Shown here: piece by piece, positions 15,182 to 21,234 of the stretch
Position numbering within the stretch: the stretch's first letter is position 1
Layout: every line of letters begins with the position of its first letter
Made by a program: the position numbers and the translations under genes
The notes under the pieces: model-generated
Seen by the model: only the letters and a program-made list of their open reading frames with translations
Databases searched by the model: none
Told to the model about the DNA's origin: nothing
From: Acholeplasma sp.
GTDB lineage: Bacteria > Bacillota_I > Bacilli_A > Acholeplasmatales > Acholeplasmataceae
Length of the DNA stretch: 34,633 nt
Direction of reading: 5' to 3'
Assembly (NCBI GenBank): GCA_003605085.1
Contig: QZKD01000046.1
Location: 1 to 34,633, forward strand

Positions 15182-16297
15182 TCAACGTGATTTGAAATAA
15201 TTCGTTTTCTTCTTCATTTCATCACGGAAATCAAGAAGGCGATCTTCTTTGATCGCTTGTCTTATTTCTTGCATTAAATGCTTTAAATAAGCCAAATTTT
15301 GGTATGTCACTAAGCGCATTCCTAAAATCTCTTCACCTTTAAAGAGATGTCTGATGTATGACCTAGTATATTTTGAGATGGGTGTTTGAAGATTGGGATC
15401 TAGTGGACGAAAGTCTGTTTCATAGGTTTGATTCTTGATAACAATTTTACCTTCTGTCGTCAGTGCAGTCCCATGTCTTGCAATTCGTGTGGGGAGCACA
15501 CAATCAAACATGTCAATCCCATGAATCACATTCTCTACTAAATCATCGGGTGCTCCAACACCCATTAAATATCGAGGTTTATCAAAGGGAAGAATAGGAT
15601 TAAGAAATTGGGTGACTTCATACATTTCATGCTTGGTTTCTCCTACTGAAAGTCCCCCAATTGAGTATCCCGGGAAATCCATTTTAATGAGTTCTTCTGC
15701 ACAAAATTGGCGTAACTCCTTATTCAATCCACCTTGAACTATTCCAAAGATTGCTTGATCTGTAGTGAGTGCATCTTTTCCTCTTTTTGCCCAACGGAGT
15801 GTGCGTTCGACAGATTGTTTCATATACGTATCTGTTTCATAAGGAGGGGGACATTCATCAAAGCTCATGATGATATCTGCTCCTAATTTTTCTTGAATGT
15901 GGATTGAATCCTCAGGTGACATAAAGAGTGCTGAGCCATTCTTATGATGCTTAAAATGGACACCTTCTTCGGTGATTTTCCGCATGTCGGTCAGTGAAAA
16001 TACTTGATACCCACCACTATCAGTGAGTAATGCTCCATCCCACTGCATAAACCCTCGAATACCTCCATGCTGTTGAACTATATCTGCACCAGGTTGAAGC
16101 CATAAATGATACGTGTTCCCTAAAATTAGACCCTCAGAGACTTCTTTAATCTCTTCTGGGGTTAATGTCTTAACGGTTGCTTGTGTTCCTACAGGCATAA
16201 AAAAAGGCGTTTCAAAAACTCCATGAGGTGTCGTTAAGCGACCTAATCTCGCACCACTTTGTTTACAGACATGCACGACTTCAAAAGATATGCTCAT
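15182..16297 (-). CDS. tgt: tRNA-guanine transglycosylase lacking the zinc cysteines
   Basis: Enzyme that swaps G34 of GUN anticodon tRNAs for preQ1. From the ATG at 16297 (AAGGATGAG ribosome site) it is 371 residues, normal length. Catalytic parts are intact: D93 in [12 protein letters not shown] and the nucleophile D265 in [22 protein letters not shown] (214-220) keeps the valine of preQ1-type bacterial enzymes rather than the glycine of queuine-type ones. The striking change is in the zinc site. Where others have C-x-C-x2-C, this protein reads [19 protein letters not shown] (300-318), with no cysteine; only the histidine ligand (H317) remains. I rechecked this on the DNA (15361-15420); the reading frame is clean. 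The longer ORF start at 16357 would run through the promoter and is rejected. Confidence 0.95.
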
Positions 16298-16356: not shown

Positions 16357-16401
16357 CAAGCTGTACCCTAGGAAACCAGCTTGATCAATAAAAACAGGGA
16401 G
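16357..16401 (+). promoter_or_regulatory. preQ1-I riboswitch in front of queT (translational type)
   Basis: P1 is CAAGCTG/CAGCTTG (16357-16363 with 16377-16383, 7 bp) closing a 13-base loop. The A-rich tail ATCAATAAAAACAGGG follows. CCCT in the loop (16366-16369) pairs with AGGG in the tail (16396-16399), and G16371 can pair with C16395, as in the known H-type pseudoknot. AGGGAG is also the ribosome site of queT, so ligand binding would hide it and switch off uptake. I see no terminator after it. The ligand is inferred from the fold and from the downstream gene. Confidence 0.88.
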
Positions 16402-16407
16402 ATTATG

Positions 16408-16890
16408 ATGAAACAATGGTTGCTTAAAGATTTTTTGCGTCAGACGATGATTGCAGCGGTTTATGCAGTTCTCGTGTATGTGTTTAGCATTTCGAGTTTT
16501 GGACTCATTCAATTTCGAATTGCAGAAGTTTTGATGATATTAGTTCTTTTTGATAAAAAGAATGTGATTGGACTTACTGTCGGTTGTTTTATTGCAAATT
16601 TGCTCTATGGAGCCATTTTAATTGATGTAATCTTTGGATCACTTGCAACCACAATCGCTGGTATCCTTATGTATCTTACAAAGAATAAACCAGGATTATC
16701 GATGATATTTCCTGCAGTGAGTAACGGTCTTATTGTAGGTATTATATTAACTTATGGCTACGTTTTAGGACCTCTTTGGATTACGATTCCCTCAGTGTTT
16801 TTAGGTGAATTTGTCGTCATGTATGCCTTAGGCTTACCCCTATATCTTGTTCTTCGCAAGCACAAAGGGTTTCTTGAATTCTTTCAATAA
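16408..16890 (+). CDS. queT: Queuosine-precursor transporter QueT
   Basis: A membrane protein of about 160 residues, QueT/DUF988 family (S-component-like of ECF transporters), importing a queuosine precursor such as preQ1. MAAVYAVL-like start (LRQTMIAAVYAVLVYVF), the conserved FGLIQFRIAEVLMILVLFDKK, then GCFIANLLYGAILIDVIFGSLATTIAG are hallmarks; five or six membrane helices follow the whole length. The start is taken as ATG 16408, 6 bases after AGGGAG; ATG 16405 is possible, while the in-frame TTG at 16381 lies inside the riboswitch and is rejected. Tgt, the user of preQ1, is divergent next door. No de novo genes (queC, D, E, F) are present, so this looks like salvage. An energising ECF module is also not in the window. 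Confidence 0.93.
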   Translation: MKQWLLKDFLRQTMIAAVYAVLVYVFSISSFGLIQFRIAEVLMILVLFDKKNVIGLTVGCFIANLLYGAILIDVIFGSLATTIAGILMYLTKNKPGLSMIFPAVSNGLIVGIILTYGYVLGPLWITIPSVFLGEFVVMYALGLPLYLVLRKHKGFLEFFQ

Positions 16891-18582: not shown

Positions 18583-18609
18583 AAAAATGACCTCCTTAGG
18601 TCATTTTTT
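18582..18609. terminator. Bidirectional terminator between XRE gene and galK-galT
   Basis: A 12-bp stem AAAAAATGACCT/AGGTCATTTTTT (18582-18593 with 18598-18609) has a CCTT loop. Both converging genes end in it: the TAA of the XRE gene (18580-18582) touches its edge, and the TGA of galK-galT (18601-18603) lies in the stem. Confidence 0.92.
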
Positions 18610-21213
18610 AATACATGATTCAATAAATTCTTGAAACGCTTCTATACCTTCTTTATTTTGTTTAAAGACACCTGAATCTTCAATCACTTTCTCAAAGCGT
18701 CGACCGATGTCCACCTGGATCTGTTCAAATGAATGGATTTTTTTATCCTGTAAGGTATCGAGCCATGGTAGATGCTTATCAATCGAGGGATGCATAACAC
18801 CTAAAGAAAGATAATCAAGTGCATAAATCATTTCTTCTTTAAGTCTTCCCGGTAGAATCGCGAGTCCCATCGCTTCAATCAAACCAATATTTTCTTTTTT
18901 GATATGATGAACATCAGGATGGGGATGAAAGATACCATCTGGGTATATCTCATTGGTACGATTGTTTCTTAAGATAAGATCAACTTCATAATGTCCTTCA
19001 TTTTTTCTTACAATTGGTGTGATGGTTTGATGAGGGGTGTCTTTTGTCCATGGAATGATCTCAAGAGCTTCATTACGATAAGCCTTCCATGCTTGATAAA
19101 TTTTTTCGACAATCGTTTTTAGTGTCTCGCGATGATTTGATTTGAGACGAACAGTAGATAGTGGCCAATGAAGGATTTCAATGACGATTCCTTGATATCG
19201 ATATGTTTTGATGGTTTTTGCTTCTTCAATGGGGAAATGATATTTTCCACCCTGAAAGTGATCATGATTTAATATCGATCCTCCAACAATGGGAAGATCC
19301 GCATTGGATCCAATGAAATAACTTGGAAATTGATCGACAAAATCAAAAAGATAATCCATTGTCTTATCGGTAATTTTCATCAAACGATGCTCATCGTGTA
19401 GAATGATGGCATGCTCATCATAATAGAGATAGGGTGAATATTGGAAATGCCAAAGTTCACCACCTAAAATGATGGGAACAATTCGTAAATTCATCCGAGC
19501 ATTCCAATAGTTATGTTCATTTTCCTTACAGAGAACACATTTTGGACGTCCTTCCACGATTAAATCTTTCGCTTTGGCGATATCGCGTGGATCTTTTTCT
19601 GGTTTAGCGAGATTGATGGTGATTTCTAAGGGGCCATAAGTACCTTCATAACGCCACTTGGTATTTTGTTTGAGTCTTTCTGATTTAATGTAGTTCACAT
19701 CTTTAGAGAGCTGATATAGATACTGTGTGGCAAAATCTGGACTGACCAAATATTTATCTTTAAAGTTTTGTTTGACGACCTTAGGTTCTTCCATGACGAA
19801 ATCATAAAGATAAGCCTCAAAGGCATCCCTTTCTTCGGTCGTATTAGGCGAGAATAGGTTTAGTGTGTACCCACGATCGATCATCAATTGAAGGGCATGA
19901 TCGAGATTCATGTCAAAATCTAAAATTGTATCATCGATACATACGTGTAAAAGATCAGAGAGTTTTTTGAGTCGTGCATCTTTTTCATTAGCTGGAAATA
20001 AATTGAGGTCTGTGGCATGTTGTACAAAATATTTAAGCGATGCTTTCAGATAATCTAAAGCAATTTCTTTCACACCATCTTCAAAATTCACCAAGTAGAA
20101 ATCTGGTGGAATGTTTGTTTTATTGAAATAGGCAACCCCGACCTTTGTCTTAACATCTTCGATAAGATCATCGGGAACTAATGCGATTGCACAACCACCA
20201 AACCCAGCACCTGTGACTCGTGCACCCATAGCACCAGCCTTCTTCGCTTCTTCGACCAACGTATCAAGATGGAGTCCTGTCACTTCATAGTCTTCTTTTA
20301 GAGACTTATGTGAACCATCTAAGAGCTTGGCGAAGGCATTTGCATCATGAGCTTCCATCGCTTTTTTTGCTTGTAGTGTCCTATCTTGCTCTGTGATCAC
20401 GTGGCGAACACGTTTATAGATTGTATCATTATGGATAAGAGGTTCTATCCACTTGAGATCCTCTATAGATAATTCACAAAGATGACGGATTACCTTTTTT
20501 TCAATGATTATTTTTTGTGCAAGATTGCATTCGCTGACACGCTCATTGTATTTGGATTCTGTCGTTTTTCTCTTGTAATTTGAGTTCATGATCAGCCAGC
20601 GATACCCCTTAAAGAATGCATTAGCTTTGGTCATCTCGAGTGTGTCTGTATTCATTAAGATTCCATGATCTTTGATGCCATTGGCGATAATGAGTTGATC
20701 CATGATTCCACAGTGCATACCCATATAGTAATTTTCGACATGTTGACCCAGCAGTGCTATGTCTGTTCTTGTTAAGCCTAAGTCATAAAGTTGATTGGCA
20801 ATATAACCCACTAAAACTTCAAGGGACGCTGATGACGATAAGCCTGATTGAGGGGGGAGATTACCTTCGATGTAGAGATCAAATCCAAAAGGAATAGAGT
20901 ATTGTCGCTCTCTAAGCTCAAAAAGGATACCTTTAGCATAGTTAGCCCACCCATGATCTTTAAGGTAAGCCAGTTGATCAATCTCGATATCGATGACTCC
21001 TTGTTCCTTGAAATTTGCCGAATAAAAACGAAACCGTTGATCGGTTCGCTTTTTGATGGCACCATAGGTCCCAAGACTGATCGCAGCAGGAAATACTAAA
21101 CCGCCATTATAATCAATGTGCTCACCAATCAGATTGACACGCCCTGGTGAGAAAAAAATTCGCTCGTGTTGATACTTAAATATTCGATGAAATTCTAAAA
21201 GAATCGACTTCAT
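18601..21213 (-). CDS. galK-galT: Galactokinase / galactose-1-phosphate uridylyltransferase fusion
   Basis: One uninterrupted 870-residue chain with two Leloir-pathway enzymes. Residues 1 to about 380 are a GHMP galactokinase: the signature GRVNLIGEHIDYNGG (24-38), PQSGLSSSAS (121-130, ATP loop), HCGIMDQ with catalytic D172, and GARVTGAGFGGCAIAL (330-345). From about 382 a class II (Firmicutes-type) GalT begins with its helical N-terminus. PKCVLC follows (557-562), then GGSILNHDHFQGG (644-656), in which H650 and H652 form the active site. Both halves have full length and all key residues I can check. Start ATG 21213 has GGAGG at 5 bases; an ATG at 21225 overlaps that site and is rejected. It would turn galactose and UDP-glucose into glucose-1-P and UDP-galactose. 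galE is not in the window. Confidence 0.93.
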   Translation of the reverse strand: MKSILLEFHRIFKYQHERIFFSPGRVNLIGEHIDYNGGLVFPAAISLGTYGAIKKRTDQRFRFYSANFKEQGVIDIEIDQLAYLKDHGWANYAKGILFELRERQYSIPFGFDLYIEGNLPPQSGLSSSASLEVLVGYIANQLYDLGLTRTDIALLGQHVENYYMGMHCGIMDQLIIANGIKDHGILMNTDTLEMTKANAFFKGYRWLIMNSNYKRKTTESKYNERVSECNLAQKIIIEKKVIRHLCELSIEDLKWIEPLIHNDTIYKRVRHVITEQDRTLQAKKAMEAHDANAFAKLLDGSHKSLKEDYEVTGLHLDTLVEEAKKAGAMGARVTGAGFGGCAIALVPDDLIEDVKTKVGVAYFNKTNIPPDFYLVNFEDGVKEIALDYLKASLKYFVQHATDLNLFPANEKDARLKKLSDLLHVCIDDTILDFDMNLDHALQLMIDRGYTLNLFSPNTTEERDAFEAYLYDFVMEEPKVVKQNFKDKYLVSPDFATQYLYQLSKDVNYIKSERLKQNTKWRYEGTYGPLEITINLAKPEKDPRDIAKAKDLIVEGRPKCVLCKENEHNYWNARMNLRIVPIILGGELWHFQYSPYLYYDEHAIILHDEHRLMKITDKTMDYLFDFVDQFPSYFIGSNADLPIVGGSILNHDHFQGGKYHFPIEEAKTIKTYRYQGIVIEILHWPLSTVRLKSNHRETLKTIVEKIYQAWKAYRNEALEIIPWTKDTPHQTITPIVRKNEGHYEVDLILRNNRTNEIYPDGIFHPHPDVHHIKKENIGLIEAMGLAILPGRLKEEMIYALDYLSLGVMHPSIDKHLPWLDTLQDKKIHSFEQIQVDIGRRFEKVIEDSGVFKQNKEGIEAFQEFIESCIKK

Positions 21214-21234
21214 GGTGACCTCCATACGTCAAAC

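Follow-up and report, generated by a model that had tools for sequence, protein, structure and literature searches.

A clade of tRNA-guanine transglycosylases in Acholeplasmataceae and a related family that has lost the structural zinc site and probably remains functional

The zinc domain is one of two hallmarks of tRNA-guanine transglycosylases (TGTs) according to the available portion of PMC6165067. PMC9508795, with reference to Chong 1995 for the E. coli enzyme, describes zinc as required for TGT activity and lists TGT among the zinc-requiring enzymes of queuosine synthesis. A tgt gene without the zinc-binding cysteines is found in the window analysed here, i.e. the whole 34,633-nucleotide stretch of Acholeplasma sp. 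DNA. Does such a gene still encode a working enzyme, and does that enzyme do without the metal? From sequence comparison, genomic context and a structural model, we conclude that the product is very probably a working, preQ1-inserting Tgt that lacks structural zinc.

The gene is located as follows:

15182..16297, minus strand: tgt, encoding tRNA-guanine(34) transglycosylase, 371 amino acids from the ATG at 16297

The frame is also open from a GTG at 16357. It should be noted that the Tgt searches and the modelling used the chain from residue 4 (Ser at 16288), and residue numbers such as Gln330 follow that numbering. The product matches the bacterial Tgt equivalog model TIGR00430 over its full length, at 496.9 bits against a cut-off of 306.75, and it also matches PF01702; it thus passes both family models despite the absent zinc site. 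One Tgt copy was found in the source genome, a draft of 1.72 Mb in 46 contigs that is about 85% complete.

Three positions in the C-terminal part of the gene define what has been lost:

15371..15394, minus strand: NLQTPISK loop, shorter by one residue than the C-x-C-x2-C zinc segment that it replaces (from the alignment)

15347..15349, minus strand: retained His, aligned with E. coli H317 and Z. mobilis H333, a dimer-interface hot spot and not a ligand

15299..15301, minus strand: CAA, coding for Gln330 of the model, where E. coli has the fourth ligand H333

Between a shared DP and the following Tyr, E. coli Tgt reads ECDCYTCRN and the window Tgt reads NLQTPISK (then YTRSY), so that the three cysteines are gone and the segment has one residue fewer. 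This bears out the cysteine loss described in an earlier sequence-only reading, which had flagged 15361..15420, an interval that includes the replaced segment. That reading gave the segment as NLQTPISKY; the loop is right, whereas the final Y is the Tyr after the loop. It had also taken a remaining His for the fourth ligand, and here it was mistaken. We take the zinc-binding His to be the helix His 31 residues past the first Cys, namely: C302 and H333 in E. coli, and C318 and H349 in Z. mobilis. Position 333 (E. coli numbering) varies together with the cysteines, whereas almost every sequence, zinc-less or zinc-keeping, has His at position 317; the fourth ligand is therefore assigned to 333, which is Gln in the window. 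With none of the four ligands left, the alignment indicates that the whole Cys3-His site is lost, making the loss more complete than first claimed. In human QTRT1, the ligands are three Cys and an alpha-helix His, printed as His248 in the portion of PMC6165067 consulted, and the accessible text of PMC5395182 counts Z. mobilis His333 among the aromatic hot-spot residues at the dimer interface, along with Phe92, Trp326 and Tyr330.

In order to see how far this loss extends, we read the zinc region in other genomes. A Tgt match is present in 92 of the 101 genomes of the first search, and 90 of these were read (G004, a fragment without the zinc region, and G093 were not fetched), together with 49 further genomes of the class. 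The loss is found in two families: f1, to which the named Acholeplasmataceae belong, and the related f5. Among their 65 Tgt-bearing genomes, 64 are readable, the source genome included, and not one has any of the three cysteines; close relatives thus show no sign of the cysteine-bearing Tgt that would have undone the claim. Position 333 in the 64 is Gln in 62, Asn in one (G058) and His in one (G023). Among the named members without the site are Haploplasma modicum ATCC 29102, Tenericutes bacterium MO-XQ and Mycoplasmatota bacterium zrk7. Outside f1 and f5, all 73 complete sites are Cys3-His, those of the same-order families f2, f3 and f4 among them; beyond these 73, G068 has the three cysteines and is cut before the His, and G113 gives no data.

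In a wider search, 165 of 198 genomes had a Tgt, and 24 of the 165 belong to the same order. We saw no independent loss among the 49 genomes read of the other 141: 48 of them, from 16 families, are CCCH, and the remaining one is G113 (family f6). The 34 matches of a phylum-level draw all lie in genomes already counted. Of 80 named loci, which overlap with the other genome set, 50 are CCCH, 29 lack every Cys and carry Gln at 333, and one (L160) gives no data; as these are 80 of 488 confirmed loci, there is room for losses in other phyla. In two genomes of family f22, the only matches (L257 in G169 and L258 in G271) are to a very distant Tgt of 36–37% identity; it retains the zinc site and sits on a very long branch.

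The zinc-less sequences also group together by descent. In a maximum-likelihood Tgt tree of 138 rows, computed with the zinc columns removed by a quick search without bootstrap and rooted at the midpoint, all 58 zinc-less rows fall to the same side of a single branch (SH-aLRT 98). Only distinct rows of more than 300 residues entered this tree. The zinc label changes once on this tree, compared to about 44 times when labels are shuffled. The sequence-only reading had asked whether the loss forms a clade, and on this tree it does. L120, a CCCH locus, carries the NCBI label Acholeplasmataceae, yet the tree places it outside the group of zinc-less sequences. Two long branches, those of G020 and G023, meet in the tree, and the placement of G023 is unsure. 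The loss thus appears to have a single origin in the common ancestor of f1 and f5, in which all four ligands and one loop residue would have disappeared. It is likely that this lineage exchanged the entire site for a cluster of Leu, Thr, Ser and Gln on that one ancestral branch, rendering structural zinc dispensable and uncoupling the Tgt step from zinc, with dimerisation and catalysis kept.

One could instead suppose that the lineage saves zinc in general and that the change in Tgt is one instance of this, which we consider unlikely. The two other metal sites examined show no supporting sign: the IleRS in the window keeps its C-terminal C-x2-C-x12-C-x2-C, and the window MutY keeps its four cluster cysteines, which form an iron-sulphur site and are weak evidence on zinc. 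Since the cysteines of IleRS and MutY are kept, the loss looks specific to Tgt within this very small sample.

What stands at the ligand positions bears on whether a metal is still bound. Residue frequencies were taken from 66 zinc-less rows, in which three genomes are counted twice. The first Cys is replaced by Leu (0.83) or Ile (0.12), the second by Thr (0.71) or Ser (0.14), the third by Ser (0.79) and the His by Gln (0.92); one residue is deleted before the Tyr that follows the loop. At E. coli position 337, Phe has become Tyr in 0.76 of the zinc-less rows, and clade-typical neighbours such as this one may take part in the replacement packing. We propose that the metal site gave way to a small packed, hydrogen-bonded cluster of Leu/Ile, Thr/Ser, Ser and Gln. 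The Leu would fill the core, and the Thr, Ser and Gln would form a network by bonding one another and the loop backbone, such that loop and short helix, as well as the face at the dimer interface, could stay in place without metal.

Alternatively, a metal may still be bound through other ligands or a second subunit. Two residues conserved in both groups could serve as ligands, His317 and the Asp that immediately precedes the loop (E. coli D299), and G023 (L250) has a His-rich loop, TTFHHRYSH, together with its His at 333. However, no Cys, Asp, Glu or His within the replaced loop is conserved across the clade, and the commonest loop residues, Leu, Thr, Ser and Gln, are poor zinc ligands. We thus hold continued metal binding to be quite improbable for the clade. 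G023 itself sits on a long branch inside the zinc-less clade, where a metal site has possibly been re-acquired.

The remainder of the protein is that of a regular bacterial Tgt. Three catalytic-site residues were located by alignment:

16019..16021, minus strand: catalytic Asp (E. coli D89)

15857..15859, minus strand: base-recognition Asp (E. coli D143)

15503..15505, minus strand: catalytic nucleophile Asp (E. coli D264)

These three residues, D143 presumably serving in base recognition, are present in the window Tgt and in every zinc-less row with data. The preQ1-type pocket loop GGLSVGE is retained in the window Tgt. The catalytic aspartates and this loop are therefore intact in the alignment with E. 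coli, as the sequence-only reading had stated. The equivalents of Z. mobilis F92, W326, Y330, H333 and V233 are retained in the zinc-less Tgts, W326 being Tyr here as in E. coli; judged by residue identity, the dimer hot spot of the window Tgt reads F, Y, Y, H.

An AF2 model of the window Tgt has a mean pLDDT of 93, with the residue block 291–310 at 95–96, although AF2 models no metal and its alignment includes zinc-binding Tgts, such that a confident loop is no proof of a metal-free fold. The predicted structure superposes on Z. mobilis TGT with an rmsd of 1.3 over 360 residues, consistent with the TIM-barrel fold. Two alignments were used, namely: A1, the window with 51 of the 80 named loci, and A2, L122 first, then the window and 37 others; L166, which has a stop inside the matched range, was excluded from both.

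The neighbourhood of tgt, on the side of its start codon, contains two further features:

16357..16401, plus strand: H-type pseudoknot resembling preQ1-I, in the leader of queT (GCTGTACCCTAGGAAACCAGC...AAAACAGGGAG), from comparison of related queT leaders

16405..16890, plus strand: queT, S component of the preQ1 transporter, in divergent orientation to tgt (PF06177, 7e-39)

In agreement with the earlier description of a preQ1-controlled uptake gene beside tgt, queT adjoins it divergently. This arrangement is found in 61 of the 63 f1/f5 genomes that have both genes, compared to none of the 11 such genomes of f3. In its leader, the pseudoknot loop CCCT is able to pair with AGGG of the Shine-Dalgarno sequence, and the pseudoknot is common to relatives, with stem sequences that vary in register. 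Rfam gives no match in the window at the gathering score, and RF00522 gives none at E values up to 10 in 231 bases, leaving the window leader short of that family's own threshold; at 4 of 11 related loci, RF00522 matches with E values of 0.22–0.72 and 24.6–26.6 bits against a gathering score of 39. The queT leader is thus a candidate preQ1-I-like riboswitch missed by Rfam.

Other genes of the pathway are widespread as well. Among the 101 genomes, QueT is found in 77 and QueA in 93, the source genome included. The source genome also encodes a QueG-like protein (L264:1315-2274, contig C1), which at 174 of 200 bits falls below the TIGR00276 cut-off. In f1, QueG-like proteins and QueH are mostly mutually exclusive, both being present in G013, G033, G044 and G056; neither is matched in five Tgt-bearing genomes of the family (G007, G024, G026, G040 and G043). 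QueA without Tgt occurs in the drafts G006, G027, G036 and G054, and Tgt without QueA in G009, G045 and G046. The small-genome genus g7 of the same family (G025, G038, G047, G053 and G057) has no tgt, queA or queT matches in any of the five genomes sampled. Given this context, QueT would import preQ1, Tgt would insert it in place of G34 into tRNAs bearing GUN anticodons, and QueA, followed by QueG or QueH, would continue queuosine synthesis.

Elsewhere in the window, on the minus strand at 18601–21225, a single ORF of 874 amino acids is a GalK-GalT fusion. Its residues 5–388 match galactokinase above the cut-off for that family, and residues ~401–871 match type-2 galactose-1-phosphate uridylyltransferase strongly but below the subfamily cut-offs.

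If TGT requires zinc, as reported in PMC9508795, the protein could be a relic or have been repurposed, its Tgt activity lost, and the three drafts G009, G045 and G046, in which Tgt has no QueA match, would agree with such a loss. However, in 9 of 11 tgt pairs dN/dS is 0.03–0.08, rough ratios given the high dS of these nine (1.1–2.3), the other two pairs being saturated; on these values, tgt in the zinc-less clade is under purifying selection. The three aspartates kept throughout, the pairing of queT with tgt, the frequency of queA and the joint absence of tgt, queA and queT from genus g7 argue in the same direction. With catalytic residues kept and pathway genes mostly kept, there is no sign of the inactive protein that would have overturned the sequence-only reading, and loss of activity is very unlikely. 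Since the aspartates, the predicted fold, the dimer residues, the preQ1 pocket, purifying selection and the queT/queA context are all maintained, we favour a working Tgt that is probably zinc-independent.

The source genome is an incomplete draft in many contigs, yet faulty sequencing or assembly has virtually no chance of explaining the observation, nor has a second, normal Tgt at another place in the genome: error and misassembly are excluded by 64 genomes with the same loss, six of them single-contig, and these six (G021, G032, G035, G052, G055 and G074) have one Tgt each and no Cys-bearing copy. Two Tgt matches occur in six f1/f5 genomes. They are two pieces of one gene on one contig in G016, G028 and G072, and two pieces on two contigs in G026; G056 has an extra fragment of 40 residues, and G046 (67% complete) has two near-full matches, one of which was read, the copy on contig C164 not having been fetched.

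Since the clade lost the site naturally, what the zinc contributes can be tested directly by comparing related enzymes with and without it. The window Tgt and L122, which are about 72% identical, form such a pair, one without and one with the zinc site. In the consulted parts of PMC4425180 and PMC5395182, respectively, the C-terminal zinc domain carries dimer-interface residues, and the TGT dimer interface is a target of drug design.

The eukaryotic QTRT1 and QTRT2 share a homologous fold with the window Tgt, whereas both keep the zinc site according to the excerpts of PMC6165067 and PMC4425180 available. With the bacterial Tgts (TIGR00430, PF01702; Z. mobilis 1pud and 4dxx, E. coli 10fb), the window Tgt has in common the sequence family, the predicted TIM-barrel fold, the catalytic aspartates, the preQ1-type pocket and the dimer-interface aromatics; it differs from the Z. 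mobilis and E. coli enzymes in lacking all four zinc ligands and in its zinc loop, shorter by one residue. No report of a zinc-free Tgt was found among the matches listed in the open-access literature searched, and we know of no earlier case within Tgt. Structural zinc is dispensable in bacterial GluRS and in the adenylate kinase lid, unrelated proteins in which, as in Tgt, it is present in some family members and absent in others. The presumably zinc-free Tgt would be a variant of a known enzyme and join the losses of structural zinc already known in other protein families.
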